Under the pieces are notes generated by a model, which was given only the letters and a program-made list of their open reading frames with translations, made no database searches and had not been told where the DNA came from. A program made the position numbers and the translations under genes. DNA of 33,351 bases from a virus: positions 1 to 33,351 of the IMG/VR virus record IMGVR_UViG_3300042691_001220. One strand, given 5' to 3'. Positions 5,962 to 28,201 of the stretch are shown piece after piece. Each line of letters opens with the position of its first letter. Positions within the stretch are counted from its first letter, which is position 1.

Positions 5962-8900
5962 ATGGCCGGTATTGCATCCATCGTAGACCCCAACTCCCTC
6001 GTTGCCCGGAAGTTCGCTACTGGCGGCACTGCGAAAAAGCCCACGACCATTAACCTATTTGGGCAGCAAATCACCCTCCCGGTTAGACCCGCGCCAACTC
6101 CGGTTAGACCCGCGCCAACTCCGGTTAGACCCGCGCCAACTCCGGTTAGACCCGCGCCAACTCCGGTTAGACCTGCGCCTACGCCCCCCGCGCCCGTTTT
6201 TCGAGGGTACGATTCTCTTGACGCATTGACCAACATTTCAAAAAGCGGCGGGTCCTTTTTGTTTACCGACCCCAAAACTGGGGCGCTTAATCCTGCGCTA
6301 CAAGCACAGCTAGACCAACAGAAAGTCGCAGCGGCCAGTTACGTCCCTAAAAATGGGGATATGCGGTATGGGTTTGTGCAGTTTGGAAAGGGGATGGCCC
6401 CCGATAAAGACAACCGTAGCTTCCAAGAAAAGTTTGCCAACACCCCCGGTGCGGGGCTTTGGTCGGCGGGGATTAACCCAGACGACCCCCAAGCTGAAGT
6501 TAAAGCAAAAGCTATGTTGGATAGGCTTTTGGCTAACAAAGATCCTAAATATAGTCAAAGCGTATGGGGGAACGGGGCATGGGGTCGAGACGACGCCAAA
6601 ATGCCGGGGATACGCCAAATCCTCGCCACAACCCCTAATATTAAAGCCACTGATTTAATTGATTACGCATGGCGTGCGCCCCAAGCGCAGAATGCCCTTC
6701 AGCCCCGCGATATTGGTGAAGACATTCTTGACATGGTTGCCGTTGTAGGTTTGACGTTAATGTCTGGCGGTAACCCAACGCTTGCGACGATGTATGGCGC
6801 GGCGCGGAACGGGGAAAAATCCGGCTCATTGTTAGGTGCTTTTGGAGGCGCACTACAAGCCTATTCTCTTGCTAGTGGGGTCGGTAGCTTAACTACCGCT
6901 ATTAATTCCGCTGGTGGAGTGGGTAACTTTATAACCTCTATTCCCGGCAAAATTTCAACCACAGTTAATAAAATTTTTGCCGAAGGCGCTAAGTTTACTG
7001 GCGCCCCGCTTACTTACACTAAAACGGCAATTGATAAATTAGTTGACACCGCTACAAATAAAGTCGTAGATACTGTTACTAGCGCAAAAGATTTTGTGCG
7101 TGATTTAGCAGAAGCTCCGGGCGAAACGCTTGGATCTCTTGTGGGTACTCCAAATACCGGAGGTATTACAAGTCTTTCAAATGTTTCACCGGATATTCCG
7201 ACTATCAATGTATCGGCTATTCGCCCCCAAGATCCATTTGGGGGGTCGCTTGGACTTTCTGGCGCTCCGTCATGGGTTTTGGGACATAATTTAGTTCCAG
7301 ACGAATTAATCCCCAAAGAAAACATCACTGATACTTCAACAAAAGAAGGTGGCGGTGGAACTCCGGGCGAAGGCACTGCGGGGAGTGGGCAAGTTTCGCA
7401 AGCTGGCGGTGGCGGTGGCGGTGGCGGAACCCCAAACACCGGGGGGGTCACAGAACTTCCAAACCCTAACGCCGGGGGGGTCACAGAACTTCCTAATATC
7501 GACGCTGGTGGCGCTACGACCCCCGGCGGGGTTACAAACCTCCCGAGTGCCGCTGACATTGCAAATGCGGGTGGCGCTACGACCCCCGGCGGGATTACTA
7601 CTCTTCCAAGTGGGACCCCAGAAATTGTCATAACAGCAAGTAGGGCTGCGGAAGATAATTGGCTTATAAACGCATTAAAAGTTTCGCCTAGTTGGATAGC
7701 AAGTCAACCTGCGGATGTAAAACATAAATTATATAACCAATTAAAAAATGAATATGGAACATTAGATCAGCCTAGAATGGACACAGATGCAAGGGGGAAC
7801 ACATACAGAGTACATGATTTAACTCGTCCCGAAGAAATTATGAAACCAGATACTATTGTAAATAGTAACGGGGATAGAGTAGTAATAGATTATTCTGGAA
7901 ATGGTATTAATCCTAATGCGTTGGAAATAACTACAATTGAATCTCCAACGCCAACCCCAATAACTACGCCGACCCCAATTACGACGCCGGGGCTTCCGGG
8001 ACTTTCTACTGCGGCAAGCCAGTATGTAAATTCGTTTGAACAAACTACTCCGGTAACCCCGCCGATAATCCCCACTGGCCCTGTTGGATCCGAACCGCTG
8101 ATTCCGACAGTGCCCCCCGTGACGCCCGTGGTTCCGCCTACGCCTCCCGTGGTTCCGCCTACGCCTCCCGTGGTTCCGCCTACGCCTCCCGTGGTTCCGC
8201 CTACGCTTCCCGTGGTTCCGCCTACGCCTCCCGTGGTTCCGCCTACGCCTCCCGTGGTTCCGCCTACGCCTCCCGTGGTTCCGCCTACGCCTCCCGTGGT
8301 TCCGCCTACGCCTCCCGTGGTTCCGCCTACGCCTCCCGTGGTTCCGCCTACGCCTCCCGTGGTTCCGCCTACGCCTCCCGTTGGTCCGGTTGGTCCAATT
8401 ACTATTTCACCGTACCCAGTAGGTCCAGTAGGTCCAGTAGGTCCGGTTGGTCCGGTTGGTCCTATTGGTACTGGCCCCGTTGGTCCAGTAGGTCCGGGCG
8501 GTCCGGGCGGCGGGGGAAGTGGTGGTGGGAATGGTGGCGGGGACGGCACGGGTGATGGCACGGGGAATGGGCCGGGGACCGGAGGTACGGTGCCGGATAT
8601 TAAAATCCCGGCTGTCAGTGCGCCAAGACCTTCTGGAACCGCTGGTAAAAGCCCTGCGTTTACGGACTCAGAGGTTACATACTTAGGACTGTCTAAACCG
8701 GGGGAATATAAGCCGGTAACATATCAAGGGATTTCATCCGTCATGCCCTCTAAAAATATGCCGTTCCCATTGATGGGTGCCCAACAACCTGCGGCTTCTG
8801 CGCCAGTAGATAATTCATGGATTAATATGCTTAACCCACAAATGCCAACAGACCCCAACGCCGCTGGGTTTTTTGATTTCGCAAATTTTGGGTTTGCTGC

Positions 8901-9264
8901 GGGCGGCGACATCAACTCCCAAGATCCTATGAACCCAATGGGCGGTGCGCCTGCGTCGCAATATGGCCTCGCAGGATTGATGCGTGGGGGGCCTGCAACA
9001 AACAAACCAGTTGAAGGCTACCTTGACGGCCCCGGCGATGGGATGAGTGATTCAATCAAAGCCACCATCGACGGGCAGCAACCCGCTCGGCTTGCAGATG
9101 GAGAGTTTGTTATCCCTGCGGATGTCGTAAGCCACCTTGGTAATGGTTCCAGCAAAGCTGGTGCTAAGGTACTGTATGCTATGATGGATCGCATCCGCCA
9201 TGCCCGCACAGGCAATCCTAAGCAGGGCAAAGAAATTAACCCCAAAAAATTCTTGCCCGTGTAA
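5962..9264 (+). CDS. Large Pro/Gly-repeat virion protein with conserved ARLADGEFVIPADVV tail domain (1100 aa)
   Basis: ATG at 5962 follows AGGAG by 6 nt. Visible parts in order: five PVRPAPT repeats (residues about 40-74); a globular region (about 80-250); a hydrophobic, amphipathic stretch (about 254-400, LDMVAVVGLTLMSGG then GALQAYSLASGVG); a Gly-rich zone with GGVTELPN repeats (about 455-555); a more AT-rich middle (about 555-660); twelve VVPPTPP repeats (about 723-806); a collagen-like PVG run; and a poly-Gly zone. The C-terminus (about 1023-1100, GPGDGMSDSIKATIDG then ARLADGEFVIPADVV) is a motif I recall from many environmental phage virion proteins. Likely an internal or ejected virion protein, perhaps with membrane-interacting segments. 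Its exact role is unknown. Confidence 0.62.
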   Translation: MAGIASIVDPNSLVARKFATGGTAKKPTTINLFGQQITLPVRPAPTPVRPAPTPVRPAPTPVRPAPTPVRPAPTPPAPVFRGYDSLDALTNISKSGGSFLFTDPKTGALNPALQAQLDQQKVAAASYVPKNGDMRYGFVQFGKGMAPDKDNRSFQEKFANTPGAGLWSAGINPDDPQAEVKAKAMLDRLLANKDPKYSQSVWGNGAWGRDDAKMPGIRQILATTPNIKATDLIDYAWRAPQAQNALQPRDIGEDILDMVAVVGLTLMSGGNPTLATMYGAARNGEKSGSLLGAFGGALQAYSLASGVGSLTTAINSAGGVGNFITSIPGKISTTVNKIFAEGAKFTGAPLTYTKTAIDKLVDTATNKVVDTVTSAKDFVRDLAEAPGETLGSLVGTPNTGGITSLSNVSPDIPTINVSAIRPQDPFGGSLGLSGAPSWVLGHNLVPDELIPKENITDTSTKEGGGGTPGEGTAGSGQVSQAGGGGGGGGTPNTGGVTELPNPNAGGVTELPNIDAGGATTPGGVTNLPSAADIANAGGATTPGGITTLPSGTPEIVITASRAAEDNWLINALKVSPSWIASQPADVKHKLYNQLKNEYGTLDQPRMDTDARGNTYRVHDLTRPEEIMKPDTIVNSNGDRVVIDYSGNGINPNALEITTIESPTPTPITTPTPITTPGLPGLSTAASQYVNSFEQTTPVTPPIIPTGPVGSEPLIPTVPPVTPVVPPTPPVVPPTPPVVPPTPPVVPPTLPVVPPTPPVVPPTPPVVPPTPPVVPPTPPVVPPTPPVVPPTPPVVPPTPPVVPPTPPVGPVGPITISPYPVGPVGPVGPVGPVGPIGTGPVGPVGPGGPGGGGSGGGNGGGDGTGDGTGNGPGTGGTVPDIKIPAVSAPRPSGTAGKSPAFTDSEVTYLGLSKPGEYKPVTYQGISSVMPSKNMPFPLMGAQQPAASAPVDNSWINMLNPQMPTDPNAAGFFDFANFGFAAGGDINSQDPMNPMGGAPASQYGLAGLMRGGPATNKPVEGYLDGPGDGMSDSIKATIDGQQPARLADGEFVIPADVVSHLGNGSSKAGAKVLYAMMDRIRHARTGNPKQGKEINPKKFLPV
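6079..6183 (+). repeat. Five tandem 21-nt repeats encoding PVRPAPT
   Basis: Units start at 6079, 6100, 6121, 6142 and 6163. The first four are identical at DNA level; the fifth differs at a few third positions. This implies recent duplication. Confidence 0.93.
8128..8379 (+). repeat. Twelve tandem 21-nt repeats encoding VVPPTPP
   Basis: Units of gtggttccgcctacgcctcc plus one c start every 21 nt from 8128. All are identical apart from the fourth, where one base change makes Pro a Leu. A PVG tract follows, built on repeated ggtccagta/ggtccggtt triplet groups to about 8500. The near-perfect identity points to recent expansion. Confidence 0.93.
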
Positions 9265-9283: not shown

Positions 9284-10396
9284 ATGCCGACTGCAAATCC
9301 AGTTGTTACCCCCACCCCACCTGCGGCTCCCCCTGCGGGGAAAGAAGCGGGGTTTTTTAACTCGGGGATAAGTGGTAGCCCCACAAGTGCAAGAGTAGTT
9401 TCTAGTACGAAAACTACTTCTAATACGTTTGATCCTAACTATCAAACAAGTCTTGATTCGGCAAGGTCGGCGATAGACACCGCGTTTAGTAAACCGTGGG
9501 AAAAACTTGCTAACCCGTCGCAATACTTTGCGCCGACTACCGCCGCGCAAACAAAGTATTTTACTGACACTAAAAACCTCACAGGTCCAGCGCAATACGA
9601 CCAGTCTGGGAACCTCTACACGGGGGTGGGGGGTAGCACGTTCGATCAGGCGCAAGCCCAACAGTACATGTCCCCGTACCAAGATGCTGTTACTCAGGCC
9701 ACGATGGCTGAGATGCAGCGGCAACAAGATCGAGAATTAGCGCAGCTTGGGCTAAGAAGCGTAATGGGCGCGGGGTTAGGCTCCAGTGGGTTTTCTCTTG
9801 CACAAGCGTTGTCTAACCAAAATTATGGGCAAAACGCTGCTGCCATGTACGCTAAGTTGCAGCAGGCTGCGTATGAAAACGCGCAGAAGCAATACAACGA
9901 CGAGCAGAATCGGCGAATCCAAGCCGCTCAAGGGTTAGCTACGCTTGGGACTAACGTGAGTGCTTCCGATCTTGCTCGACTTGCAGCACAAGGGACCGCA
10001 GCAACCCAAGAGTACAACCTCGCCCAAAGGCTGAATGATCTTAGGTACAAAGAAGATAACGATTACCGGGAAGCCGCGATGAAGATGGCAGTTAATCGGG
10101 CTAATGCTATTGGTGCGATGCCGCATACTACGACCGAAACTTCCACGATCCCTAATGAAACAACTTCGATTTACGGGATAGACCCATCCGTTATGCAAAC
10201 CCTTATTGGTGGTGCGGGGGGTATCCTTGATCTAATTGGTAAGGGTGGGGATGTCGCTGCTGGGCTTAAAGGACTTAGAGACGGTTGGAATACTTTTACC
10301 GACTGGTTTGGCGGAAGTAATAGTGGTGGCGGTGGTTCTTCATACGTTCCTACCGTTGGCGGTCCAACCACAACCTTGGATGATATTCAGCCATGA
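9284..10396 (+). CDS. Internal-virion-like coiled-coil protein (370 aa)
   Basis: ATG at 9284 follows AGGAG by 8 nt. Residues about 1-20 are Pro/Ala-rich. Then comes a polar region with YQTSLDSARSAIDTAFSKPW and a QAQAQQYMSPYQDAVTQATM helix. A long helical, coiled-coil section (about 145-270: MAEMQRQQDRELAQLGLRSV, then AMYAKLQQAAYENAQKQYND) follows. The C-terminus has a small-residue hydrophobic patch (TLIGGAGGILDLIGKGGDVA) and a Gly/Ser tail. The LxxALSNQNYGQNAA segment resembles phage proteins placed next to ejection proteins (T7 gp14-like position). Its stop overlaps the next start by ATGA. No family is certain; an internal core or ejection component is the best inference. Confidence 0.55.
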   Translation: MPTANPVVTPTPPAAPPAGKEAGFFNSGISGSPTSARVVSSTKTTSNTFDPNYQTSLDSARSAIDTAFSKPWEKLANPSQYFAPTTAAQTKYFTDTKNLTGPAQYDQSGNLYTGVGGSTFDQAQAQQYMSPYQDAVTQATMAEMQRQQDRELAQLGLRSVMGAGLGSSGFSLAQALSNQNYGQNAAAMYAKLQQAAYENAQKQYNDEQNRRIQAAQGLATLGTNVSASDLARLAAQGTAATQEYNLAQRLNDLRYKEDNDYREAAMKMAVNRANAIGAMPHTTTETSTIPNETTSIYGIDPSVMQTLIGGAGGILDLIGKGGDVAAGLKGLRDGWNTFTDWFGGSNSGGGGSSYVPTVGGPTTTLDDIQP

Positions 10397-12465
10397 GCAT
10401 ACTTTCACCTGACACCATGCAATTTCAGTCGCTGGTTAAAAAACTCAGCGATGGGGCTTTGTCTCAAGCGTTGCAGATGCACGCCGATCCGTCCGATCCA
10501 AAAGGCTTTTGGCTTGCCCAAGAAGCTATGGGCCGCGCTGCTGCACGCAAAGATGCTCAGACGGGGAATGCTAACCAACCAACGGTTGCCCAGCAGTTAG
10601 CCCAACAGATGAACCCGCAGCAGCCTCCTATGCCGCCCCAAGGTATGCCGCCGATGCCGCCTCAAGGTATGCCGCCGATGCCCCCACAAGGTATGCCGCC
10701 TCAAGCACCGCCGGTTGCTATGGCTCAGGCAGGTGGGCATGTCCACGACTACGGTATCGCTGGCCTCCCTTACGAACCGCACTACGAGCACGGTGGGATT
10801 GTGTCGTTCGCCAAAGGCGGGGACGAAGGGTTATACGAAGGGCAAAGTTTTGAAGGGTACGACCCGGATGATGTAAGCCAAATGCTTGCGGAATTAGACA
10901 CAAAAGGAAAAAGCAAAGAAAACCAACAGCAGTTAGAGGCGGATAGAGACGCAGCAGTTATCGAATCGATAATAAAAGCGGGGGCGTCAGGGCCGGTATT
11001 AGCTGGGGCTGGGTTAGCGGATTTAACAGCAGTTCCGTTTCGCCTTGCCGGATCTCTTGCGTGGGAACGTGGGGAAAACGGTGAACTTAAGCGGGGGTTT
11101 GATGATCCTAATTTCAAATTATTCCCAACATTAGAAAAAGCAAATAACTGGTGGCAAGCCCCTTCTGGGGATGATTTCGTTAGCACCCGCTATGACCCCA
11201 ATTCAGACAACGCCCCGTTACCTAAAGAACAATATAAGCCAACTACCTCTAATGTGTTTTCCGCCCTCAACCCAAAAGCGGCGGAGCCCGTTAAACCTTT
11301 TGAAGCTGCCCCTACTCCGCGTCGAGCTTCACCCACTGATCTCTATAATCCATCTATCCCAACTATCGCAGCGGAAGAACCCGCCGCTCCAATGCCGCCC
11401 AATATCCGGGAAGTTACCCCGACTGGGTTAGCGTCAGGGGCGGATAGATTTTTGATGCGCGGTGCGGGCCTCCCTGCCGCCGCATCGGCTGTTTCGGGTG
11501 GTAAGAGTTACGATATTTCTGACACTGCAAAACCCGCAGAACGTACTCCACAAGACGATATAAAAGACGCGGAACAATTAAAACGCCTCAACGAATTGTA
11601 TGGGTACAATCCAGACCTAAAACAAAAACTCATTGAGGAGAACTCTGCGGCGTTGGCGGGGCTTAGTAAGAAAAGAGGGAAAGCCGCGCTTTCTGATTTG
11701 GCCGCTGCTATGGTTGCGTTTGGGCAGGGTACGGCGAAACAAGGACTCATGTCGTTTGGGCAAACTCTTAATGAAAGGTTTCGTCAAAGCGATAAAGAAA
11801 TTGATGCCGAAGAAGCCGCGTATAAGAAACGTGATTCCGAATTACGCGAAGGTATGAATGATCTTAGAAAAAATAACGTAGAAAAAGGCATGGCTAAAAT
11901 AGAAAAAGCCAACGCAGATTTCACAGCTTGGAAAGCTAACCAAGAAAAAGGCGAAACTGAACGCAATAAAACAGCGTTTGAAAAACAACAAGACGCACAG
12001 CAAAAAGCACTTGATCGTGAAGCAGACCTTAGAAAAGCCTATGCAGAAATTGCAAGTGCTGAATACCGCACCCGGTATGCTTCCAATGCTACTGCTGGGG
12101 ATAAAACCGACCCATTGTTAACAACGATGTTAAAAATTATCGAAAATCAGGGGGTTTCTCCCAATACCCTTATGCAGGAAGCGGGGGAAATAGACGCGAG
12201 TATTGATGACTCAGTGGTAGAAGCCGAGGTGGACCGCAGGACCGGCAAAACTCATGATTGGAGAAACGTAAAACCCGATTCTGAAGCTGCTAAACTGAAA
12301 TCAGACATTCGGAAAGAAATGGTAAGTTCTATACTTTCCAATCGCGCCGCAGAGGCCGGTCAACTATCGGCAAAAGGCCCGGCTGCGGGACTACGGGCTT
12401 TGATGTCAGGCCAACCAACCAGCGGTACGTGGGGTCCTGATTTCTATTCCGTTCTCCCCCGTTAA
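10393..12465 (+). CDS. Internal-virion-like protein with HYEHGG motif and coiled coil (690 aa)
   Basis: ATG overlaps the previous stop by 4 nt. Residues about 1-60 are helical (SILSPDTMQFQSLVKKLSDG). Three PPMPPQGM repeats lie at about 78-101. A conserved HDYGIAGLPYEPHYEHGGIV segment ends near residue 137 and runs into SFAKGG. This type of motif recurs, from memory, in freshwater phage virion proteins. A hydrophobic stretch lies at about 195-215. Residues about 390-565 form a long charged coiled coil (KRDSELREGMNDLRKNNVEK, then DREADLRKAYAEIASAEYRT). The C-terminus has a helical ENQGVSPNTLMQEAGEIDAS domain. It shares a YG(I/L)AGL motif with the 1100-aa protein. Probably part of the ejected core set; function inferred. 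Confidence 0.55.
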   Translation: MSILSPDTMQFQSLVKKLSDGALSQALQMHADPSDPKGFWLAQEAMGRAAARKDAQTGNANQPTVAQQLAQQMNPQQPPMPPQGMPPMPPQGMPPMPPQGMPPQAPPVAMAQAGGHVHDYGIAGLPYEPHYEHGGIVSFAKGGDEGLYEGQSFEGYDPDDVSQMLAELDTKGKSKENQQQLEADRDAAVIESIIKAGASGPVLAGAGLADLTAVPFRLAGSLAWERGENGELKRGFDDPNFKLFPTLEKANNWWQAPSGDDFVSTRYDPNSDNAPLPKEQYKPTTSNVFSALNPKAAEPVKPFEAAPTPRRASPTDLYNPSIPTIAAEEPAAPMPPNIREVTPTGLASGADRFLMRGAGLPAAASAVSGGKSYDISDTAKPAERTPQDDIKDAEQLKRLNELYGYNPDLKQKLIEENSAALAGLSKKRGKAALSDLAAAMVAFGQGTAKQGLMSFGQTLNERFRQSDKEIDAEEAAYKKRDSELREGMNDLRKNNVEKGMAKIEKANADFTAWKANQEKGETERNKTAFEKQQDAQQKALDREADLRKAYAEIASAEYRTRYASNATAGDKTDPLLTTMLKIIENQGVSPNTLMQEAGEIDASIDDSVVEAEVDRRTGKTHDWRNVKPDSEAAKLKSDIRKEMVSSILSNRAAEAGQLSAKGPAAGLRALMSGQPTSGTWGPDFYSVLPR
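10624..10695 (+). repeat. Three tandem 24-nt repeats encoding PPMPPQGM
   Basis: Units start at 10624, 10648 and 10672, each encoding PPMPPQGM with a few synonymous changes. A partial unit (PPQ) follows. Confidence 0.88.
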
Positions 12466-12488: not shown

Positions 12489-15400
12489 ATGCCTACTTTT
12501 TTGGTTAGTACCCCTACTGGGCGTCAATTTGAAGTAGATGGGGCTGATGAGAACGAAGCAATCAGCTCACTCCAAAATTACTTAAGTGGGGAAGCTGCGC
12601 CGCAACGGCGCACTAGACTTACCCCCGAGATGATCGATGCGTACCAGCAATCGCTGGGCGCACCCGCGCTTAACCAAAGTTCTATTTCTGACGAAGACTT
12701 AAAAAGTAAGTTAGCCGAGTACGAACACAAGCCGGGGTTCTTGGAAAGCCTTGGCAGTGGGGCGGAACGTAGTTTCTCTCAAGCCGCCGTACTCAAAGAC
12801 CAGCTACTCTCCTTGGGCGCGAAGGGTCTCGGTTACGACGACTACGCCAAGCAAAAGCTGGACGAGGCTGCTGCTAAACAAGAAGAAATCCAGCAGACCA
12901 ACCCCGCGCAGTTTGAGTCTTATAAAGACGTTAACTGGAGCAATTTGCCCGCTTACGCTGGAGAAAGCATCGGCGAGCAAGCATTCAACGCGCTCACAAT
13001 GTTGGGGTTTGGCGGGGTAGGCGGCGCTATCGGGAAGCGCGTTGTCACTTCAGCGGCGGAAAAAGCTGTGGCCGAGATGGCTGCACAGCGTGCGGCGGCA
13101 GGAGCGGCGGAAGCCGCAGTCCCTGCGGTAGAGCGACTCGTTGCCCGTGAAGCGGCCAAGGGTGCGGGGGTGGGCGGTAATATCGGGATGTACCTTGGGT
13201 CTTTTGGACTTAACGCCGGGGATACTTACCAAGGCATCTACGACAAGACGGGGGAAATGGCCCCCGGTGCGTCAGTAATCGGCGCTTCGATCAACGGCTT
13301 CCTCGACTCCATCGTCCCGGCGCGGTTCGTCAAAGCCCTGCGTGAGACCCCAACGCTCCGTGCAGAAGTTGCCGCTCGCATCGCTGCGGGCAAAGGCGTT
13401 GCAGAGGGTCTGCTCCCTGCGGTGAAAGCCGGGGCAATGGGTGCGCTCAAGGGCGGCGCGTTAGAACCTATCACGGAAGTGGGGCAGGAAATTGTCAATA
13501 AGCTCGCCGAGGACATTGTCGGCGAGTCGCAAGAGAAGTGGGGTTCCGAAGACTTCGACCGCTTTATCAACTCGGCTGCTAAATCCATCGCCCCCGGTAT
13601 GCTCTTTGGTTTTGGCGAAGGGGTAGGGAAGCAGTCAAACAGACGCGCCATTGCAGATCGACTAGAGCAGCAACAACAGGCTCGGCAGTTCGACGCCGAC
13701 CAGCTTGCCTCCGAGGAAGAACGCAAGCAGCAGTTGTACGAGGGGATCCCAGAGCTTGAGCAACAGGTCCAGATGCTGACTGAGGCGCTCAACCTACCAG
13801 AGAACCGCGCCCGTGCGGGGGAACTCAACTTCAACTTGCGGGAAACCCAGCAGCAACTGAACGACCTGTCGCAAGAACTTACCATCCTTGAGATGCCCCG
13901 CAATCAGCGGGCGCAGTTCTACGCTCAACAGCAGCAAGAAGAAGAAATCGCCCCGGAAGAGGAGGAAGCGCCGCCGACTGCGCCTGCGCCCGTTACGGCT
14001 AGAAGCGTGCTTGAGCCGCTGGGTGTTTCTGCGGAAGATATTAAGGGGCTGAACGTAAACCCCAACGCTCCGCTCCGTGGGAACGCCGCGCAACGAGTCG
14101 CAGACTTTATCGACCAGTGGCGGGTGAATCCCAATCTATCTCTTGAGCAAGCCCAAGCGGCGGATGCGGCACTTGCAGAACTCCCGGAACTCCAGTCGGA
14201 CGCCATCAGCGTAGGTCAAAGGGAAGACCGGGAAGCACACCTTGCTGCGGCTCCCGACCTTGTGCCTAAAAAGATGGAGAACTGGTACAAAGCCGCGCAA
14301 CAGCACGGGTTAACGCCCGAATCCCCAGACGCATGGCAGCAACTGTCTGATGCCCGCTATGCCGCTAGGAGCCCCTCAGTCCGTGCGGCGTTGACCGAGA
14401 AACTGAAGGCCGACTTCCCGGAACAGGAACAAGGGGAGGCCGACCGCGTTGCCGCGTTGACCGAACAGCAGCGGATGGCGGAGGAGCAAGCTAGAGCCGA
14501 GGCGGTGTTCAAGAAGGCGCAGGATGCGACGTACCGCAAACAGGTTAAGGACACCATCGCTAACTTCTTGGCAATAGCTAAGGAGCAACAGCGGAAACTG
14601 GAGGCGGCGCGGAAGCAAGCGGCGCAAGAAGGTAAGCTTAAGGCCGAGCAGGACGCGCAAGCGGGGACGCTGATCTCGGAGTTAGACAGGCACCTCAACT
14701 CCGACCTACCGGCGCTCACGCAGGCTCAGTTGGACGCCCCGGACAGCACCGCCGCTGCGGTCGCTTTGCGGCAGATGCGAGACACCATCGCCAAGAAACA
14801 GGAGGCGCTGAACAACTTAGCGCCCGTTGGGACCCGCCCGACCCCCCGCCCCGCGACTATTGCGCCGCCCAACATCACCGCTATGCAGACGGTCAGCGAT
14901 GTGCTGCGTCATGCTGGGTTCCCCGGCGCGGCCAAGCCTAACGGGATGCAGCCCAACGCACCGCTCCGTGGTGCCACGGCGGAGAAGTTAGCTAACTTCC
15001 TACAGCGTATTAAGCCCGAGTCGGTTAAGGATGTCGCTCAAGGTGAGCGCATTGACGCGCTCAAAGAACACCCAGCGTTCGCCTTGGAGGAGATTGAGCG
15101 GACCAAAGCGGAAGATCACCAAGCGCATATTGAGTCGGCAGCGGGGCTTAGAAGAAGCCGGGAAGCGTTCCAAGCATGGCAGACGCAACTGCGAGGCGAC
15201 TACAAGTTAGGGACCGATGCGGAAAAAGACCAAGCGGTCTACCGGGACCTGCGTACCGCACAGGGGGTCGCCCAAGACCATACGAAGAACCAGATTGAGA
15301 AATACATCTACAGCAGCCCCCCGCTGAAAAAGATTGCTGCGGAAGAGCAACAATCTGCGGGTCCGTTGGCGGAAGTCCGTGAGTCCCGTGCGGAGTCAAG

Positions 15401-18400
15401 GTCGGGAGCGGGGGCATTTTCAGAAGATGCGTTTCGTAAGGCAATGGGGGACGCGGTTAATTGGTCGGGGGATTACAAAACGCCCGGATATAAAAGCAAA
15501 GACAAATTAATTGAAATGCCAATTGCTGATTTTTTAACAATAGCGGACGATGGTTTTCAGCAAAAAAACTATGATGATGTTTTAGCTCTTTTTAGAAAAG
15601 GAATTAAATTTAATGCTATACCACAATTATCACTTTTTCGTGACAAAGATGGTAATATTAGAGGACAAGGGCATGAAGGAAGACACCGCGCTCGTGTTTT
15701 GAGAGATAACGGATACGATACGATTCCCGTCAAATTATTAACGGATATTCGTTGGTCTGAACAATCAGACCCTAAAAGTTTTGATTATTTGAAGAAGTGG
15801 CCGTCTAAAATCATATCTCAAGACGGCACCAAATCTATCCCTATGCTTGTTCCTCGCGAGCAGTCCATGACTCCGTGGAGTCCTTCAACGAAAATCCGTG
15901 AGTCCCGTGCGGGGAAAGTAACAAAAAATCGCACGCCGGAACTTCAAGCTGCTGCCGAAAAATTAAAGGCGGGGGAAATCACCCGTGAGGATTACGCCCG
16001 ACTTGTGAATAAATACAAGCCGGTAGTGCCGTATGAGCAAGTTCCGGCTCCAGCGTCCAACGCCGATATGGAACAAGCGTTAGACAAACCCAAAGTTCCA
16101 AAAATTAATGCCCCGCGTGGTATGGCTAATGGAACGCCGGTTAAACTCCGATTAGATATTCCTGCGTATGATAAACACAACACATGGATAGTAACTGTCC
16201 ATGAAGGGAATAAACCGGGGTTCAAAGCAGAAGCGGTTATTGGATACACCAGCACTGCGGCAGCTACTGATGTTACGTTTGGGTTAGAAACGGCGCAGGC
16301 TGGGTTAAATATCGCTGGGGGTAAACCGAAAGGCACTATTGCGACCATGAAGGGTAAGTGGCGCGACATGACTCCCGAGAAAGCAAAAGCTCGCGCTGAT
16401 GCTGCCATGAAAGACCCAGCTTGGCGTCAGATTGGTATGGATCCAGAACGTCATGGGTACTTCTATGACCGCGAAACAATGCAGCCGATTACCCGCGCTG
16501 ATGAAGTAATCCAGATTGGTCCGTTGGTTCTTGGGAAAAACGTCACCTACGGCAAACCGGACAATTTCCTATACTCCCGCGCTGCCGAAGGCTCCTCCAC
16601 CAAGCCGACACCGGAGCAGGTGCGTAAGGTTATCGAAGACCGGATGGGGGCCAGTGCGGCTAATGTCACCATCGCCCGCACGCCGAAAGAAGCTGGGGTA
16701 GATAACGTCAAGGGCATCCACCCGCTGACCAAGGGCGCGATCATCAACGGCAAGGCGTACCTGTTCACCGACAACATGCGTGTCGGTAAGGAATTTGGCG
16801 TGTTCCTGCATGAGGTCGGCGACCACCTCGGGATGAAGAAGCTAGTCGGCGAAGGGAACTACAACTTCCTTGTCTCGCAAGTTCAGAAGTGGGCCGACAA
16901 GAACGACGGATCGCTGGAGTCCAAGATTGCCCGTGCGGCTATGGAGCGCATCCCGCAGGGGACCAAGAAAGAAAGCGAATTGCTCGCCTACTTCATCGAA
17001 GAGGCGGTGGACAACTACGGGGTAAACCCGTCTGAGGTCCGAGACACTGCAACTCCGCTGGGGGCGTTCTTCCGCAAGATCATGGCGGGCATCAAGAACA
17101 TCCTCAACAAGTTGGGGCTGTCACCGAAAGATCTTACGTCGCAAGACATTATCGACCTTGCGTATGGCGCGGCGCAGTTGGAGTTGTCGGGGCAAGTTAA
17201 GGGTAAGGGCACCTCGCTCTCCCTATCAAGCGATAAGAACATCAGCCCGTTGGGGTTCTACAGCGCGTTGGAATACAACCTCTCACGCCTGCCGACCAAG
17301 TCGGCCACGGCGGCTGGCTGGAAGGACGCGATCAAGGGCCTGCTCAACAAGGGGCTAGTCAAAGCCGAAGAGGTCGAGTGGTCTGGCATCAACGACTGGC
17401 TCGATCTCACGGAAGGCAAGATCACCCGTGAGCAAGTGCAGGACTACCTAGCCCAAGGCGGCGTGCAGGTAGAAGAGACGGTACTGGGTAGAGCAAAAAA
17501 GAAAGATGATAAACCGTTAACTTGGGGAGAATGGTCGGAACCTGACGAAAATGGGCATAAAGAAATGAAAGCCTCTTCGGGGTCAAAAATTATTTACAAA
17601 CCAAAAAATTCAAACAGCGGACCGGGGACGCCGCTAAGAGACGACTATGTAGTTATAGACTCGAATGGTCGGCATCAAGGTACAGTAAATGATCTAGAAC
17701 ACGCTAAACAAATTACTTCAGCGTTTGAATCTAGCGCAGGGATGGGTGTAACTCCTACTAGATATAACCGTAATAATCTCGTTCTCCCCAACGGTAAAAA
17801 TTACCGAGAAGTATTGTTGACATTACCAAGTAAAAAAGTAAAAGGACGCAACTACGGACATTGGGAACAAAGTAATGTTTTAGCCCATACCCGCCTTAAT
17901 GACCGCGTCGATACAGACGGTAAGCGCGTGTTGTTTGTCGAAGAAGTTCAATCGGATTGGGGGCAAAAAGGTAAAAAAGAAGGTTTTGTTGTTTCACTTC
18001 CGCCGCTTAAAGAACTACCAAATGATGTAGTAGTTACAAAAAAATACAATGCTACAATAGACGAAGTTGAATATATTAAAGCCGAATTTACACGAATTAA
18101 TAGAATAATAACAAATTTATTTGATGCTGCGGATTTTAATCCCGAAAAACGTAAAAAATATAACGCTATTGTAGACGGAGAAAAAGGCGATAGATTCCTT
18201 GATCTTTCGCATAAATTTACAGATTTTAATTCCTATAACAGGATCGACCGAGTTCTAAATACGGTTCCTCATTCTGAGTTTTTAGAATGGCGTGAATTAA
18301 TTAGAGAAATAGTTCCTACTGCGTTTGAAACAGACCCTTATGAATCGAGACAGATATGGGTTGCAATCCAAAGTAATGCACGAATTGGTACAGGCGAAAC

Positions 18401-21400
18401 TAAAGAAGAAGCTAAAAAAGAGGCGCTTGACGTAATTAATGAAAATAGGAAATTTCCTGATGGGATTGCGTCCGCACCTTTTGTCACCAAGACCGAAGGC
18501 TGGGTGAACCTCGCACTTAAGCGCATAATGATCATGGCTGCGGAAGAAGGCTATGACAGCGTAGCTTTTTCTAACGGAAAGCAGAACGCAGATAGATACA
18601 ATTTAGCTAATCACGTTGAATCGATACAAGTACTTAAGGAAGGGGAAGGATATTACGTCACCCCCACCGATAAAGATGGGTATGAATTTCCTCCACAAGA
18701 AGCTAAAAACGCCGCAGAACTTGAGCGTATGGTCGGTGTAGAATTAGCAAAAAAAATTGTAAAAGATTTTAGTGGAAAACCCAATGATAGTTTTACCGCT
18801 ATGCAAAACGAAGATTTTGAAACTTATGCTGTTTATAATCAAAATTTAGAACAAATTGGCCCCAAATTTGATGATTACGATCAAGCCGCAGATTATGCAA
18901 AAGATCTTCTCGCTGGTAGAGTAGTTCCTCCTAGAGTGTACAGTGGTTTAGATTTGGACATTGGTGGTGAAGGCATGAAAACCTTCTATGACCAAATCAT
19001 TCCTTCTGCGTTGAAGAAGCTACTGCCAAAAGTTGATGGTGGAAAACTTCGTAATGTTAATATTGATTTTTCTGGGGATGCGTCTAATAACGAAGAATTG
19101 CCTTGGAACATTGCGGCTGTTCGCCGGATAATTCAAAGCGGTGGGGAAGTATACGCAGTTACGCATTATGGGTCTGAAGAACAAATTAGATCGGAACAAG
19201 ATTTAGAAGATATATTAGAATACGGAGAACCAAGAGGGTTTATATACGGCGATAAAGGAGAAACCCTTCCCCAACTCGGTTTCGACATTACCCCGGAGAT
19301 GGTGTCCAAGATCGAAGGGGGCTTGCCGCAGTTCTCCCGCGCCCCGGAAGTCCGTGAGTCCCGCGCTCCCGGCGTTGTAGTCAACCCGCGTGCGCCATCG
19401 CCCAGCGTCATAGGCAACGGCACCGCACAGGGTCGGCAGCAGCTTGCCGACTACGCCTACGGTCGTATGGATACCGTGATGCGGAACACCCCGCAGTGGG
19501 GTAAGGCGACGATGGGCAAGGCGCTGGGCGAGTTGAGCAACATGCCCACCAGCGCGAGAAAGTTTGTCTACTACGCGGCACAGCTTCCGCAGTTGGCCGA
19601 CATGATCGACAAGACCAGCCCCAGTGCAGCGGCCCGCATCCGGGATCTGGGGGAAGTCCTTGCTGCGCGGAAGACCCGTGCGGATAAACGGAAAGCGTTC
19701 ATCGAGAAAATCCTGCTTGACGGCAAAGCGGCAGTGGAGAAGTACACGCCCGCGCAGTTGGCTAAGTTTGAAGAAGTGACGCACAACCTGAGCCGGGAGC
19801 AGATTGATCCGTGGGATGCCGCTAACAAGACCCACCCGCTATCTCGACAATTCTATGCGTTGCCGAAACCGTTGCAGGACATTTTTAGCTCGGTGGTCGC
19901 GGCGTACCGGCAGTTTGGGGATGAGTACCTCGACCACATGGAGAAGATCGCGGGGCCTGCGTTCTCTCCTGCGATGAAGATGCAGTACAAGATGCGGATG
20001 AAGCGGATCATGCCGTACCTCCCGTTGTTCCGCGAAGGCGACTTCTGGGTGGCGTACACCGACAGAACTGGTGAGGCTGTGGTCCGGGCGTGTGATACCG
20101 ACCTTGAACGCAGTCAGGTGATGCGTGCAGCACAGGCGGCAGGGGCGACCGACATCCAGCCGTTCAAGCAATTGGCTGACATCAACCCCAACAACGTGAA
20201 GCCGACTCGGGAGTTCGCCCAGATTTTCAACCTGATGAAGGAAAAGGGAGTCGATGAGGCGGTGCAGGCTAAGGTCTACCAGACGCTCCTCCAGATGTTC
20301 CCGGCGAAGTCCATCATGCAGCAATTCCGCCCCCGTAAGGGGACGCTGGGTTACCGTGAGGACATCCTACGGAACTTCGCCATCGTGGGTTCCCGCATGG
20401 CCGACAACCTCACGCAGTTTGAGTTCACCAAAGACATCGACAACGTCTACAGCGACTTGGGCAAGGAACTGCTAAAGAGCGAGCGGTCCGGGGATGACGT
20501 TGCCGTTGACATGCTGAACGAACTGAAACAGCGGGAGAACTTCCTGCGGTATCCGGTGAACAGCAAGTACGCCAACCTCGCCGCGTCTGCCAGCTACAAC
20601 CAATTTTTGCTGGGTAATATTTCCTCGTCGGTGATGAACAGCACCAGCTTGGTGATGAGTACGTTGCCTGTTCTCGGCGGCGAGTACGGCTACGGTAGGA
20701 CCGCCGCTGCGATGTCGAGAGCGTTGAGCATGTACGCCAAGGGTGGCCGGGACGACAACACCTCACTCACTATCTTCGGTCGGCGGCTGTCCGACAAGAC
20801 CTTCATGGGCGACTCGGCTCGGGGCAAGGCGTTAGAGAAATCCCGTCCTGACCTCAAGAAGCTCTACGACACCGCAATATCCCGGCAGGCTATCCACCGT
20901 TCCGTGGGGCTTGAACTCCACGATATGAGGAAGATGGCGCTGTCGGAATACACCGGCTCGTGGATGAAAATCAAAACGCTCTTAAGCTGGTTGTTCCAAA
21001 ACTCGGAGCGGATGAACCGCGAAATTACTTTGCTTGCTGCGTATCAGTTAGAAATGGATGCGTTAGCGAAGCGCGGGATTCGCGGGGATGCGGCGACCAA
21101 TCAGGCGATTGATAAAGCCATCAAGGCGATCACGTTCACCCAAGGCGTTGCCACCCCGGAGCTTGGTTCTCGGGCGCTTCAAGGCAATATAGGCAAAGTC
21201 ATTGGTACGTTTAAGAAGTACCCCATGACCCAGCTTTACATGGTAGGCACGCTCTTCAACGATGCTATCCGGGGCGCAAGCGCCAAAGAAAAGCAGATCG
21301 CACAGAAACAGCTTCTGGGCATCATGGGTATGGGTTGGGCGTTTGCCGGGGTTAAGGGCCTGCCGCTCGTTGGCGGTATCTCATTTTTGGCCGAGATGAT

Positions 21401-22148
21401 TATCGGCGACGATGATGAGCCATTCGACATAGACCAGTGGGCGCTGGAGTCAATGGGCAATCTGGGGTGGAACGGTCTGGTCAGTGATATGACCGGCCTC
21501 CGCATCAGCGACCGTGCGGCTATCGGCTCGTTCTTCCGTGAGGATAAAAAGCGGCTGCAAGAGCTTGGGTGGCAGTGGTATCTCGCGGAGCAGACCATTG
21601 GTGCGCCTGCCAGTCTGGTGAAGAATTGGATCGACGCGAGCGAACTATTCCAGCAAGGCTACACTTTGAAAGCGGCGGAACGCGCCTTGCCCCTGTTCAT
21701 GAGCAACGCCATTAAAGCGGTTGATCAAGGCATCAACGGTATCGTCACCAAGGACGGCGTGCGTATTGCGGACGACCCGAGTACCAAGGACCTCATCATG
21801 CAGGGTATTGGGTTCCGAAAGGAATCGACTGCACGGGCGCAGGATGTCAACACTATCGAGAACCAAATCACCACAGCGGTTAACGCCCGCAGGACTCAGG
21901 TCCTCAATAACCTCTGGCGGTTCCGTAACGATCCTGAGCGGCTGGCAGAAGCCCGTGAAGCTAGGGACGACTTCAATCGCAGTCGGTACGGGCAGCTACC
22001 GAAAAACCGTATCACTGCCGAGACTATTGAGAAGTCCAAGAAGCAACACAAGGTGGTGGACAAAGCGGCGGCAGCGCACGCTGGTATGGCCCCGGACCAA
22101 AGGTACAAAGCCGCGTTCCGAGAGTTGGAAGAATCGGTGGACAGATAA
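12489..22148 (+). CDS. Giant polyvalent virion protein with ParB-like and zincin-like domains (3219 aa)
   Basis: ATG with GGAG upstream. Layout by residue: 1-55 beta N-terminus (FLVSTPTGRQFEVDGADENE); 75-370 Ala/Gly-rich hydrophobic virion-like part; 385-500 coiled coil; a duplicated domain at about 504-600 and 798-900 (shared NAPLRG); 975-1120 ParB-like, with GHEGRHRARVL near 1060; 1205-1375 a recurrent phage domain (GMDPERHGYFYDR, then ADEVIQIGPLVLGKN); 1375-1520 zincin-like with H1441-EVGD-H1446; 1590-1665 a small helical domain; 1750-2265 a recurrent polyvalent domain (NYREVLLTLP, FVEEVQSDWGQKGKKEG, GWVNLALKRIMIMAAEEG); 2300-3219 helical, with an LPD38-like zone at about 2830-2935 (tentative) and a hydrophobic patch at about 2940-2975. 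Such proteins are thought to be packaged and injected to counter host functions. Two blocks are AT-rich, unlike their flanks. Confidence 0.82.
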   Translation: MPTFLVSTPTGRQFEVDGADENEAISSLQNYLSGEAAPQRRTRLTPEMIDAYQQSLGAPALNQSSISDEDLKSKLAEYEHKPGFLESLGSGAERSFSQAAVLKDQLLSLGAKGLGYDDYAKQKLDEAAAKQEEIQQTNPAQFESYKDVNWSNLPAYAGESIGEQAFNALTMLGFGGVGGAIGKRVVTSAAEKAVAEMAAQRAAAGAAEAAVPAVERLVAREAAKGAGVGGNIGMYLGSFGLNAGDTYQGIYDKTGEMAPGASVIGASINGFLDSIVPARFVKALRETPTLRAEVAARIAAGKGVAEGLLPAVKAGAMGALKGGALEPITEVGQEIVNKLAEDIVGESQEKWGSEDFDRFINSAAKSIAPGMLFGFGEGVGKQSNRRAIADRLEQQQQARQFDADQLASEEERKQQLYEGIPELEQQVQMLTEALNLPENRARAGELNFNLRETQQQLNDLSQELTILEMPRNQRAQFYAQQQQEEEIAPEEEEAPPTAPAPVTARSVLEPLGVSAEDIKGLNVNPNAPLRGNAAQRVADFIDQWRVNPNLSLEQAQAADAALAELPELQSDAISVGQREDREAHLAAAPDLVPKKMENWYKAAQQHGLTPESPDAWQQLSDARYAARSPSVRAALTEKLKADFPEQEQGEADRVAALTEQQRMAEEQARAEAVFKKAQDATYRKQVKDTIANFLAIAKEQQRKLEAARKQAAQEGKLKAEQDAQAGTLISELDRHLNSDLPALTQAQLDAPDSTAAAVALRQMRDTIAKKQEALNNLAPVGTRPTPRPATIAPPNITAMQTVSDVLRHAGFPGAAKPNGMQPNAPLRGATAEKLANFLQRIKPESVKDVAQGERIDALKEHPAFALEEIERTKAEDHQAHIESAAGLRRSREAFQAWQTQLRGDYKLGTDAEKDQAVYRDLRTAQGVAQDHTKNQIEKYIYSSPPLKKIAAEEQQSAGPLAEVRESRAESRSGAGAFSEDAFRKAMGDAVNWSGDYKTPGYKSKDKLIEMPIADFLTIADDGFQQKNYDDVLALFRKGIKFNAIPQLSLFRDKDGNIRGQGHEGRHRARVLRDNGYDTIPVKLLTDIRWSEQSDPKSFDYLKKWPSKIISQDGTKSIPMLVPREQSMTPWSPSTKIRESRAGKVTKNRTPELQAAAEKLKAGEITREDYARLVNKYKPVVPYEQVPAPASNADMEQALDKPKVPKINAPRGMANGTPVKLRLDIPAYDKHNTWIVTVHEGNKPGFKAEAVIGYTSTAAATDVTFGLETAQAGLNIAGGKPKGTIATMKGKWRDMTPEKAKARADAAMKDPAWRQIGMDPERHGYFYDRETMQPITRADEVIQIGPLVLGKNVTYGKPDNFLYSRAAEGSSTKPTPEQVRKVIEDRMGASAANVTIARTPKEAGVDNVKGIHPLTKGAIINGKAYLFTDNMRVGKEFGVFLHEVGDHLGMKKLVGEGNYNFLVSQVQKWADKNDGSLESKIARAAMERIPQGTKKESELLAYFIEEAVDNYGVNPSEVRDTATPLGAFFRKIMAGIKNILNKLGLSPKDLTSQDIIDLAYGAAQLELSGQVKGKGTSLSLSSDKNISPLGFYSALEYNLSRLPTKSATAAGWKDAIKGLLNKGLVKAEEVEWSGINDWLDLTEGKITREQVQDYLAQGGVQVEETVLGRAKKKDDKPLTWGEWSEPDENGHKEMKASSGSKIIYKPKNSNSGPGTPLRDDYVVIDSNGRHQGTVNDLEHAKQITSAFESSAGMGVTPTRYNRNNLVLPNGKNYREVLLTLPSKKVKGRNYGHWEQSNVLAHTRLNDRVDTDGKRVLFVEEVQSDWGQKGKKEGFVVSLPPLKELPNDVVVTKKYNATIDEVEYIKAEFTRINRIITNLFDAADFNPEKRKKYNAIVDGEKGDRFLDLSHKFTDFNSYNRIDRVLNTVPHSEFLEWRELIREIVPTAFETDPYESRQIWVAIQSNARIGTGETKEEAKKEALDVINENRKFPDGIASAPFVTKTEGWVNLALKRIMIMAAEEGYDSVAFSNGKQNADRYNLANHVESIQVLKEGEGYYVTPTDKDGYEFPPQEAKNAAELERMVGVELAKKIVKDFSGKPNDSFTAMQNEDFETYAVYNQNLEQIGPKFDDYDQAADYAKDLLAGRVVPPRVYSGLDLDIGGEGMKTFYDQIIPSALKKLLPKVDGGKLRNVNIDFSGDASNNEELPWNIAAVRRIIQSGGEVYAVTHYGSEEQIRSEQDLEDILEYGEPRGFIYGDKGETLPQLGFDITPEMVSKIEGGLPQFSRAPEVRESRAPGVVVNPRAPSPSVIGNGTAQGRQQLADYAYGRMDTVMRNTPQWGKATMGKALGELSNMPTSARKFVYYAAQLPQLADMIDKTSPSAAARIRDLGEVLAARKTRADKRKAFIEKILLDGKAAVEKYTPAQLAKFEEVTHNLSREQIDPWDAANKTHPLSRQFYALPKPLQDIFSSVVAAYRQFGDEYLDHMEKIAGPAFSPAMKMQYKMRMKRIMPYLPLFREGDFWVAYTDRTGEAVVRACDTDLERSQVMRAAQAAGATDIQPFKQLADINPNNVKPTREFAQIFNLMKEKGVDEAVQAKVYQTLLQMFPAKSIMQQFRPRKGTLGYREDILRNFAIVGSRMADNLTQFEFTKDIDNVYSDLGKELLKSERSGDDVAVDMLNELKQRENFLRYPVNSKYANLAASASYNQFLLGNISSSVMNSTSLVMSTLPVLGGEYGYGRTAAAMSRALSMYAKGGRDDNTSLTIFGRRLSDKTFMGDSARGKALEKSRPDLKKLYDTAISRQAIHRSVGLELHDMRKMALSEYTGSWMKIKTLLSWLFQNSERMNREITLLAAYQLEMDALAKRGIRGDAATNQAIDKAIKAITFTQGVATPELGSRALQGNIGKVIGTFKKYPMTQLYMVGTLFNDAIRGASAKEKQIAQKQLLGIMGMGWAFAGVKGLPLVGGISFLAEMIIGDDDEPFDIDQWALESMGNLGWNGLVSDMTGLRISDRAAIGSFFREDKKRLQELGWQWYLAEQTIGAPASLVKNWIDASELFQQGYTLKAAERALPLFMSNAIKAVDQGINGIVTKDGVRIADDPSTKDLIMQGIGFRKESTARAQDVNTIENQITTAVNARRTQVLNNLWRFRNDPERLAEAREARDDFNRSRYGQLPKNRITAETIEKSKKQHKVVDKAAAAHAGMAPDQRYKAAFRELEESVDR
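14058..14975 (+). repeat. Diverged internal domain duplication in the giant protein
   Basis: Two copies are offset by 297 residues. Copy one (residues about 504-600) has NPNAPLRGNAAQRVADFIDQW, then EDREAHLAAAPDL and NWYKAAQ. Copy two (about 798-900) has QPNAPLRGATAEKLANFLQR, then EDHQAHIESAAGL and AFQAWQ. The anchors PNAPLRG and the (E)D-AH(L/I)-(A)A motif align in order. The coordinates span the two anchor motifs only. Confidence 0.7.
15376..15393 (+). repeat. RESRA linker repeat, copy 1
   Basis: tccgtgagtcccgtgcgg is identical to copy 2 at 15895-15912 and lies 519 nt (173 codons) upstream of it in the same frame. It encodes the RESRA linker just before the AT-rich ParB-like domain. Confidence 0.9.
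15394..15894 (+). other. AT-rich ParB-like domain block inside the giant gene
   Basis: By hand count, 15601-15660 is 15/60 G+C and 15541-15600 is 20/60, against 33/60 in the preceding stretch 15061-15120. The block encodes the ParB-like domain (IEMPIADFLTIADDGFQQKN, then GHEGRHRARVLRDNGYDTIP). Exact 18-nt repeats bound it on both sides. Acquisition as a unit is inference. Confidence 0.7.
15895..15912 (+). repeat. RESRA linker repeat, copy 2
   Basis: Exact 18-nt match to copy 1. It closes the ParB-like block and is followed by a helical KNRTPELQAAAEKLKAGEIT segment with mixed base composition. Confidence 0.9.
17490..19330 (+). other. AT-rich polyvalent-domain block inside the giant gene
   Basis: G+C falls sharply after about 17490 (18061-18120 is 13/60 by hand count) and recovers near 19270-19330 (19981-20040 is 35/60). 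The block encodes the recurrent YREVLLTLP / EEVQSDWGQ / ADRYNLANHVESI / GLDLDIGGEGMKTFYDQIIP polyvalent domain. A short GC-richer patch at about 18475-18560 lies inside it. The downstream border is the third RESRA repeat; no RESRA copy was found at the upstream border. Confidence 0.65.
19345..19363 (+). repeat. RESRA linker repeat, copy 3
   Basis: cggaagtccgtgagtcccg is identical over 19 nt to 15370-15388 (copy 1 and its upstream flank). It follows the AT-rich polyvalent block and a related QFSRAP motif, and precedes the GC-rich C-terminal third. Confidence 0.9.
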
Positions 22149-26641: not shown

Positions 26642-28201
26642 TTACTCTGTCAACTCCTGATTGTACAAATCGATCAACTTTGTATGGTCGCCGAGTTTGT
26701 CTCTTAGCATGGCGTAGAGGCGGTTCTCCACTTGCGAGCCCGCAATGTGGATGACGGTCATCGGGTTCTTTTGTCCCTGCCGGTCGATACGCGCATTCGC
26801 CTGTAGGTAGGTCTCGATTGATGTACAGGGGGCGTACCAGATGATGGTGTCGGCGGCGGTCAGCGTGACCCCGTGCGCCGCAGCGGCGGGCTGGATGACC
26901 AACACTTTCAAATCATCTTCCCCGTTGGTTTGGAACCGCTGGATGATGTCGTTGCGCTTGGTCGCGGATACATCCCCGGCAATCACTTCGCAGGGGATGT
27001 GTTTGCTGTCGAGATAGTTTCTTAAAAGGCTGATGGTGTGCGAGAACGGGACGAATACCAGCACCTTGTGCGACGCCTCATTGATCGCCTCCTCCACAAC
27101 CTTCAACCGATTGGACACATCAAACTCGGCGGTTGCCCCGGAGTTGGTGTAGACCGCCCCGCCCGAAATCTGCAAGAGCTTGTTGATGTTCACCGCGACG
27201 TTGGCCGAGGTAATCTCCTCTTCCCCGGCGGTCATCAAGAAATCCTTCTTGAGGATGTCGTAGTACTTCTTCTGCTGCGCCGTCAGCGGGGCTTCCCGGT
27301 CGATGTATGTGATCGGCGGCAGGTCTAGGCAATCTTTTTTGGCAAACCGAATGGCAGGCTGCAAAGCCGTGTGAACTTTCTGCGCCGCGTCCACCTTGGG
27401 TATCCACTTGAACCGACTGATCTGAGTCATCACCGCATCCTTCCACGCGCCAAAAAACTTAGGCACCGTGTCGGGCGTGCATAGTTTGGCAAGCCCATAA
27501 GCGTCGGCAGGGGACTGCGCCGCAGGGGTCCCGGTCATTAGCCACAGCCAGCGGTCTTCAGTCACTAATTTTTTCATCACCCGCCACCGCTTGGTGGTCG
27601 TCGTCTTATAGGCGTTGGCCTCGTCAATGATGATGAGGTCGAACTTGTTCTTGGCAATGGCGTCGGCGACAATTTCCACCCCATCAAAATTTATGATGAC
27701 GTAGTCGTAGTTACCTTCGATAATTTTTTGGCGCTTATCTTTTGTGCCGTGCGCGATACCGACAGACCTGTGCGTAGCGAAGTTGAACAGGTCGCGCTGC
27801 CATGCCGCCTGCATGATCGACAGGGGGCACACGACCAGCACGCGCCGAATGTACTTCCACTTCATCAGGTAGTCGGACGCCCAGATAGCCGCCCCGGTCT
27901 TCCCCGTGCCTTGCTCGTTGAAGCAGTACGCCCTCGGATGCAGGGTCAGGAACTCCCCGGTATCACGCTGGTGTTGGAACGGTGTATACAGCCCCGGCCA
28001 GTCGTAGTCCCGGAGGATCGGACTGGGGACATTTTTAACTTCTAATCTAGTCAACTGCTGGGCACGTTTTAAGTCCCATTCAACGGCAACGGTGGAAATG
28101 TCGGCTTCTTGATCTACTACTTGGCTCTCCTCAATTACGTCTGTGATTTTGTTTGGGTTTCGTGTGCGTACCGCTAAGTACTTGTTATCTATTATTTCCA
28201 T
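26642..28201 (-). CDS. SNF2/DEAD-box family helicase (519 aa)
   Basis: Motif Q-like FQHQRDTGEFL (about 75-85) precedes Walker A NEQGTGKTGAA (K101). Walker B IIIDEANAY (D193, E194), motif III LMTGTPAAQ (about 221-229) and C-terminal-domain motifs follow: VLVFVPFSHTISLLRN; LVIQPAAAAHGVTLTAADTI; and motif VI ARIDRQGQKNPMTV. This is the two-RecA-fold arrangement of superfamily 2, SNF2-like subgroup, as in many phage helicases placed near the polymerase. Expected role: ATP-driven remodelling or unwinding in replication or recombination. It starts only 5 nt after the preceding zinc-ribbon gene, with no obvious ribosome-binding site, so coupling is likely. Confidence 0.88.
   Translation of the reverse strand: MEIIDNKYLAVRTRNPNKITDVIEESQVVDQEADISTVAVEWDLKRAQQLTRLEVKNVPSPILRDYDWPGLYTPFQHQRDTGEFLTLHPRAYCFNEQGTGKTGAAIWASDYLMKWKYIRRVLVVCPLSIMQAAWQRDLFNFATHRSVGIAHGTKDKRQKIIEGNYDYVIINFDGVEIVADAIAKNKFDLIIIDEANAYKTTTTKRWRVMKKLVTEDRWLWLMTGTPAAQSPADAYGLAKLCTPDTVPKFFGAWKDAVMTQISRFKWIPKVDAAQKVHTALQPAIRFAKKDCLDLPPITYIDREAPLTAQQKKYYDILKKDFLMTAGEEEITSANVAVNINKLLQISGGAVYTNSGATAEFDVSNRLKVVEEAINEASHKVLVFVPFSHTISLLRNYLDSKHIPCEVIAGDVSATKRNDIIQRFQTNGEDDLKVLVIQPAAAAHGVTLTAADTIIWYAPCTSIETYLQANARIDRQGQKNPMTVIHIAGSQVENRLYAMLRDKLGDHTKLIDLYNQELTE

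Follow-up and report, generated by a model that had tools for sequence, protein, structure and literature searches.

The window analysed here, a virus record of 33,351 bases taken at its full length, contains one open frame of 3219 codons, which raises the question of what kind of protein a phage would make at such a size and how its parts are arranged. An initial annotation had read this frame as a single gene for a polyvalent protein, with a ParB-like domain followed by a zincin-like peptidase, and the position that it gave is exactly the one that we find:

12489..22148, + strand: giant polyvalent protein gene, with an ATG start and encoding 3219 aa; the identical 3219-aa protein is found in a second contig (L002)

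Because the whole protein is intact at 100% identity over its full length in this second contig, the frame is neither an assembly artefact nor a chance ORF. Structure prediction, motif conservation and the relatives of the protein all back the general reading, and the 3219-aa product belongs to the polyvalent proteins of phages, which were described as a class in 2017. Indeed, it unites at least two unrelated biochemical domains, since a ParB/sulfiredoxin (Srx) fold, a zincin motif set and a GNAT-like fold stand in one polypeptide, and it belongs to an invasive element and lies near late and virion genes, since in the virus record lysozyme and virion structural genes precede it in the same orientation.

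The giant gene is the last of the virion-gene block. Before it, together with other late genes, come genes for a GH108 lysozyme, a virion structural protein (PHROG 3287) and a tail-fibre-like protein, as well as two more, all on the same strand. These two genes have partly similar counterparts at the same position in relatives, and their products are candidate partner virion proteins of the giant:

9284..12465, + strand: two upstream genes, encoding 370 and 690 aa

The last ~120 aa of the tail-fibre-like protein (5962-9264, +) are about 80% identical across phages and the remainder differs, a pattern as expected of an intramolecular-chaperone end. Downstream, on the opposite strand, lies a replication block with a DUF927 primase-helicase, an SNF2 helicase (26642-28201, -), a Dam methylase (28416-28835, -), a PD-(D/E)XK nuclease and DNA polymerase A, in which the SNF2 helicase and Dam are separate early genes. 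A 2OG-Fe(II) oxygenase gene (31599-32234, -) adjoins that of the polymerase and could possibly serve DNA or nucleotide modification.

Relatives of the giant that are annotated as DarB-like are also placed among late genes. Such a place suits assembly too, and the giant might then be a late protein that is not injected but has a role in assembly or lysis timing inside the cell that makes it. We regard this as very unlikely, given that related and similarly annotated giants have been predicted or found in virions (PMC5512222, PMC9144972). Virions of phage JC1 yielded 51 unique peptides of its DarB-like giant gp69 (PMC9144972), and P1 virions contain both DarB and DdrB (PMC9024508). A comparison of Burkholderia phages with the C-terminal region of the giant found no sequence match, and JC1 gp69 is linked to it by annotation only. 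Judged from the place of its gene and from its family, delivery of the giant into the host together with DNA is plausible.

To describe the architecture of the family, loci from IMG/VR were searched with profiles of both ends of the protein:

12666..13658, + strand: N-terminal chassis region (aa 60-390), Gly/Ala-rich and moderately hydrophobic, seen by profile in 35 relatives, all with the C-terminal chassis too
19464..22052, + strand: C-terminal chassis (aa 2326-3188), of the PLxRFG / tail-700 type (NF032893, PHROG 10089)

The C-terminal region was found in 84 proteins, 35 of which are relatives that have the N-terminal region as well, and the middles of these 35 vary in length and in domains. 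The conserved parts span ~aa 60-470 and aa ~2313-3200. The helical C-terminus passes the curated cut-off (100 bits) of the NCBIfam family NF032893 'tail-700 / PLxRFG', with 116 and 226 bits (E 1e-33 and 1e-66) for the two overlapping segments scanned, and its last ~700 aa match PHROG 10089 'DarB-like antirestriction' (E 7e-45). At the other end, where a hydrophobic, virion-like N-terminus had been proposed, the region is real and conserved, with 34% identity to that of L028, but its hydropathy is moderate: the best 19-residue window scores 1.24 in this region and 1.49 in the whole protein, and no strong transmembrane segment was found in the giant by such windows.

Comparison with close relatives shows how the middle is replaced. 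The replication proteins of L091 are 69-85% identical to those of the window phage, and the two giants align only over aa 1-472 (35.5%) and 2313-3200 (33.8%), with about 845 aa in L091 standing where the window giant has about 1,840 aa of middle. Four shorter relatives of 1760-1891 aa (L028, L097, L098 and L103) have the N-terminus, the recurrent domain that we call LPDa, the zincin and the C-terminus in the window order, without the coil, the duplication, the ParB domain or the second recurrent domain, LPDb. L131 has a zincin and then a short HEGRHRA match. Judged from these alignments, the giant is a chassis of conserved N- and C-terminal parts with an exchangeable middle.

The middle contains a duplication that the initial annotation had noticed, aa ~520-592 and ~817-888 matching each other with an E value of 4e-5:

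13965..14264, + strand: duplicated domain, copy 1 (aa 493-592), matching copy 2 (E 4e-5 to 3e-6)
14922..15176, + strand: duplicated domain, copy 2 (aa 812-896), matching copy 1

No relatives were found for this domain or for the putative coiled coil (aa ~400-470). A Pfam search with the whole 3219-aa protein matched nothing, and the segment-wise search proposed with the initial annotation gave a weak LPD39 as its sole match (E 0.009). The ParB, LPDa and zincin rows were misaligned when taken jointly, and were therefore aligned domain by domain. The first of these domains had been called ParB-like, and its predicted fold agrees:

15480..15878, + strand: ParB/sulfiredoxin-fold domain (aa 998-1130), from a 15-sequence alignment, an AF2 model and PDB matches

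The motifs HEGRHRA (aa 1062-1068) and DIRWSEQ (aa 1086-1092) are invariant in the 15 sequences. The AF2 model of aa 974-1138 has a pLDDT of 84.7, and the best Foldseek matches are sulfiredoxin (E 6e-4), Noc, SbnI, ParB, PadC and Osa, nearly all of the best 37 being members of the ParB/sulfiredoxin superfamily. VIA-align gave Z scores up to 5.8, and all nine rows at Z 5 or more belong to the superfamily (Srx, Noc, SbnI, serine kinase, ParB, PadC, Osa); the absence of other folds from these lists was given no weight as evidence. The model thus indicates that aa ~998-1130 is a ParB/sulfiredoxin fold, in which the features of the superfamily, an alpha+beta fold and a helix with a conserved Arg of the GxHR type, are provided by the fold matches and by the invariant EGRHR. 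In hhalign, the 15-sequence profile had no match in the ParB domain of P1 DdrB, which was represented by a single sequence, and the HEGRHR ParB domain may be a family separate from the DdrB-like one. The HEGRHR ParB/Srx domain is also encoded by itself, as a small gene, in L169 (492-1256), L181 and L183-L186; in L169 this gene encodes 255 aa and directly precedes the large terminase gene.

Two recurrent domains had been predicted in the giant, and both recur. They flank the zincin:

15930..16574, + strand: LPDa (aa 1148-1362), a recurrent domain with a distant likeness to mycobacteriophage L5 gp82, from PF25735 and its recurrence in IMG/VR
17247..19334, + strand: LPDb (aa 1587-2282), a probable GNAT-fold domain with large insertions, from a 12-sequence alignment, a model and fold matches

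LPDa is present in at least 592 IMG/VR stretches; PF25735 was matched by 20 of 51 rows (best E 5e-7), and the likeness to L5 gp82 is weak. LPDb recurs in phage giants and matched no Pfam family. Its model has a pLDDT of 59.7 overall with a confident core. Foldseek matches were weak (best E 0.055), acetyltransferases leading, and in VIA-align all 50 rows are of GNAT fold (Z 10.8-6.8), from the GNAT domain of ICL2 (Z 10.8) to NatD, AtaT, KacT and TacT. LPDb therefore probably has a GNAT (acetyltransferase) fold, as judged from the model. Its invariant residues in the 12 sequences lie in E-x-Q-S-x-W and H-x-R, and the aligned loop, EVQSDWGQKGKKEG, in which E, Q, S and W are invariant, differs in spacing from the canonical acetyl-CoA loop Q/R-x-x-G-x-G/A. 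Two RimI-like GNAT families have been described in polyvalent proteins (Iyer et al. 2017, PMC5512222), and the lack of a Pfam match disfavours LPDb as one of them. Two GNAT-like LPDb copies are present, with four ART-PolyVal stretches, in a giant of Dolichospermum phage Dfl-JY45 (L006, 6352-13515).

These invariant residues bear on what the middle is for. The giant could be an ejection or internal-core protein in which the modules of the middle have no enzymatic part to play and are for the most part decaying passengers or structural filler, as would suit the wide differences in size and composition among relatives and a coil and duplicated domain that have no relatives. We consider this improbable, as residues of catalytic type are invariant across diverse proteins in the ParB domain (HEGRHRA/DIRWSEQ), in the zincin (HExxxH and a Glu) and in LPDb (E-x-Q-S-x-W, H-x-R).

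The borders between modules are marked by short linkers, RESRA three times and YSRA and FSRA once each in the window protein, all of them at such borders:

15361..15393, + strand: linker repeat copy 1 (repeat family D1), encoding VRESRA ahead of the ParB domain
15880..15912, + strand: linker repeat copy 2, encoding IRESRA at the ParB/LPDa border, 82% identical to copy 1
19336..19368, + strand: linker repeat copy 3, encoding APEVRESRA at the border of LPDb and the C-terminal chassis, 67% identical to copy 1 over 33 nt
16572..16583, + strand: YSRA linker (aa 1362-1365) at the LPDa/zincin border, a sequence motif

The DNA around the RESRA sites is itself a repeat of 33 nt that occurs three times (at 15361, 15880 and 19336), and the serine codon of the linkers is constant within each protein: TCC in all five of the window protein, where TCC makes up 17% of the serine codons of the giant gene, AGC in all five of L029 and AGT in all three of L162. 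Repeated DNA with a constant serine codon suggests copied DNA linkers, and hence insertion of modules by recombination. There is no general excess of FSR/YSR in the giants (FSR 28 against 22.8 expected). At module borders these motifs are enriched, 15 of 51 falling within 4.5% of the residues, a count that depends on a small number of proteins (L029, the window protein and L006) and may include some domain ends. The giant of L029 (4475-16213) has five FSRKQ linkers (aa 1833, 2056, 2198, 2346 and 3021), four of which are at mapped module borders. That the linkers serve as protease cutting sites is a guess.

The candidate protease is the zincin, proposed in the initial annotation and recovered here at the level of its motif:

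16728..17177, + strand: zincin-like metallopeptidase domain (aa 1414-1563), with HEVGDH at aa 1441-1446 and E1497

H1441, E1442, H1446 and the downstream E1497 are invariant in the 20-sequence alignment, and so provide the HEXXH/HEXXXH helix and downstream Glu that define a zincin MPTase; HEXXXH is one of the published variants of the polyvalent-protein zincin (PMC5512222). PF20573 (putative metallopeptidase) was matched by 4 of 51 rows, with a best E of 0.0018. The PDB sequence-profile matches for the zincin were designed helical proteins and were taken as composition artefacts.

We counted the motif in the family, taking the 44 non-redundant proteins in which 450 aa or more precede the C-terminal region. 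HExxH/HExxxH occurs upstream of that region in 39 of these relatives, against 2.5% expected from shuffled sequences, and five have no simple zincin motif. The ParB domain, with its HEGRH, would itself be counted by this pattern, but every protein with HEGRH has a further motif. The motif is likewise present in every one of the 12 prophage copies, from named bacteria that are mostly Gammaproteobacteria, in which over 1,000 aa precede the C-terminal region. Because it is found in 39 of 44 relatives and in every long prophage copy, the zincin behaves as part of the chassis and, at the level of these motif counts, looks like core machinery.

Cleavage does not follow from its presence, since the virion RNA polymerase of N4 keeps the MPTase and is packaged uncut (PMC5512222). 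It is accordingly possible, if doubtful, that the giant is a virion-delivered polyvalent protein acting uncut in the manner of this polymerase, its zincin being an effector that cuts host proteins. ArdC, like the N4 enzyme, keeps the MPTase and is transferred uncut (PMC5512222). The zincin of the window protein lies 885 aa from the C-terminal chassis, and the family has two zincin sequence types (for example, HEALGHFGL and HETVHAAISH), as swapped effectors would show. Against this, the motif is near-universal and mostly in one place just before the C-terminal chassis, at 117-165 aa from it in relatives, which fits core machinery better than cargo.

We therefore favour, with a probability of roughly 60%, a virion-carried, module-swapping polyvalent protein built of chassis and cargo with an internal processing peptidase. 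The N- and C-terminal chassis would let the giant be built into the virion and ejected together with DNA. The middle would be cargo that changes between close relatives through module exchange, aided by the short repeated DNA linkers at its borders. In the window phage this cargo would comprise a domain of ParB/Srx fold that binds nucleotides or acts as a nuclease, LPDa with its likeness to L5 gp82, and the GNAT-fold domain, which may acylate host targets. The zincin would most likely cut the polypeptide, during maturation or after entry, freeing modules in the host cytoplasm; zincin-mediated processing has been proposed for the polyvalent class (Iyer et al. 2017, PMC5512222). Packaging, ejection, self-cleavage, the enzyme activities and the host targets of the giant are what we infer, the first three from its family. 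It is unlikely that the full set of proposals holds jointly, namely a chassis with its own protease, enzymes swapped at linker repeats, GNAT and HEGRHR ParB/Srx families so far unrecognised, and linkers (SRA here, FSRKQ in L029, YSR in L162) as cutting sites.

How much of this is known already can be seen from described systems. With the polyvalent proteins of Iyer et al. 2017 (PMC5512222) the window giant shares one long polypeptide with unrelated domain types, a zincin MPTase of the HEXXXH class, a ParB/Srx-type domain and a gene at the end of the late virion genes; it differs in a ParB/Srx domain that is not recognisably DdrB-like, in a domain of probable GNAT fold for which Pfam has no model and in its own domain order. 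The proposal in the initial annotation that the order of ParB ahead of a zincin might be new does not stand. MPTases fused to a distinct ParB domain have been reported, as in P1 DdrB, where the MPTase is C-terminal and ParB precedes it (Iyer et al. 2017, PMC5512222), and L172 of the same family (1680 aa) has ParB, zincin and C-terminal part in that order. The resemblance of DdrB to the window zincin is confined to 24 residues around the HE motif, and DdrB, with 995 aa, has no GNAT-like or PLxRFG part, unlike the window giant. The DarB-like / PLxRFG giants (Serratia phage Parlo, PBC5, Klebsiella phage ZX1 and others) have the C-terminal ~700 aa in common with it. P1 DarB-type proteins carry a methylase and an SNF2 helicase inside the giant, whereas the window phage has Dam and SNF2 as separate genes; Pfam detected no DNA methylase or SNF2 helicase domain in the whole window giant or its segments, which places it outside DarB antirestriction proteins. 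T7 gp16 (internal virion protein D), likewise large and in a late virion block, is a working analogy only: hhalign detected no relation to the window giant, including its C-terminal part, and no transglycosylase domain was found in it.

Thus, the polyvalent kind (2017) and the order of ParB before zincin were known, and the exact combination of domains, two domain families unrecognised by Pfam and the quantitative pattern of chassis and cargo are new. The construction, delivery and cleavage of large phage proteins, like the roles of their unnamed domains, rest so far largely on prediction. The results name a likely fold for LPDb, a domain without a Pfam model, and the fixed ends, replaceable middle and near-universal zincin lead to a direct test of whether the zincin cuts at the linkers. 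The chassis may also offer a natural carrier for bringing proteins into bacteria.
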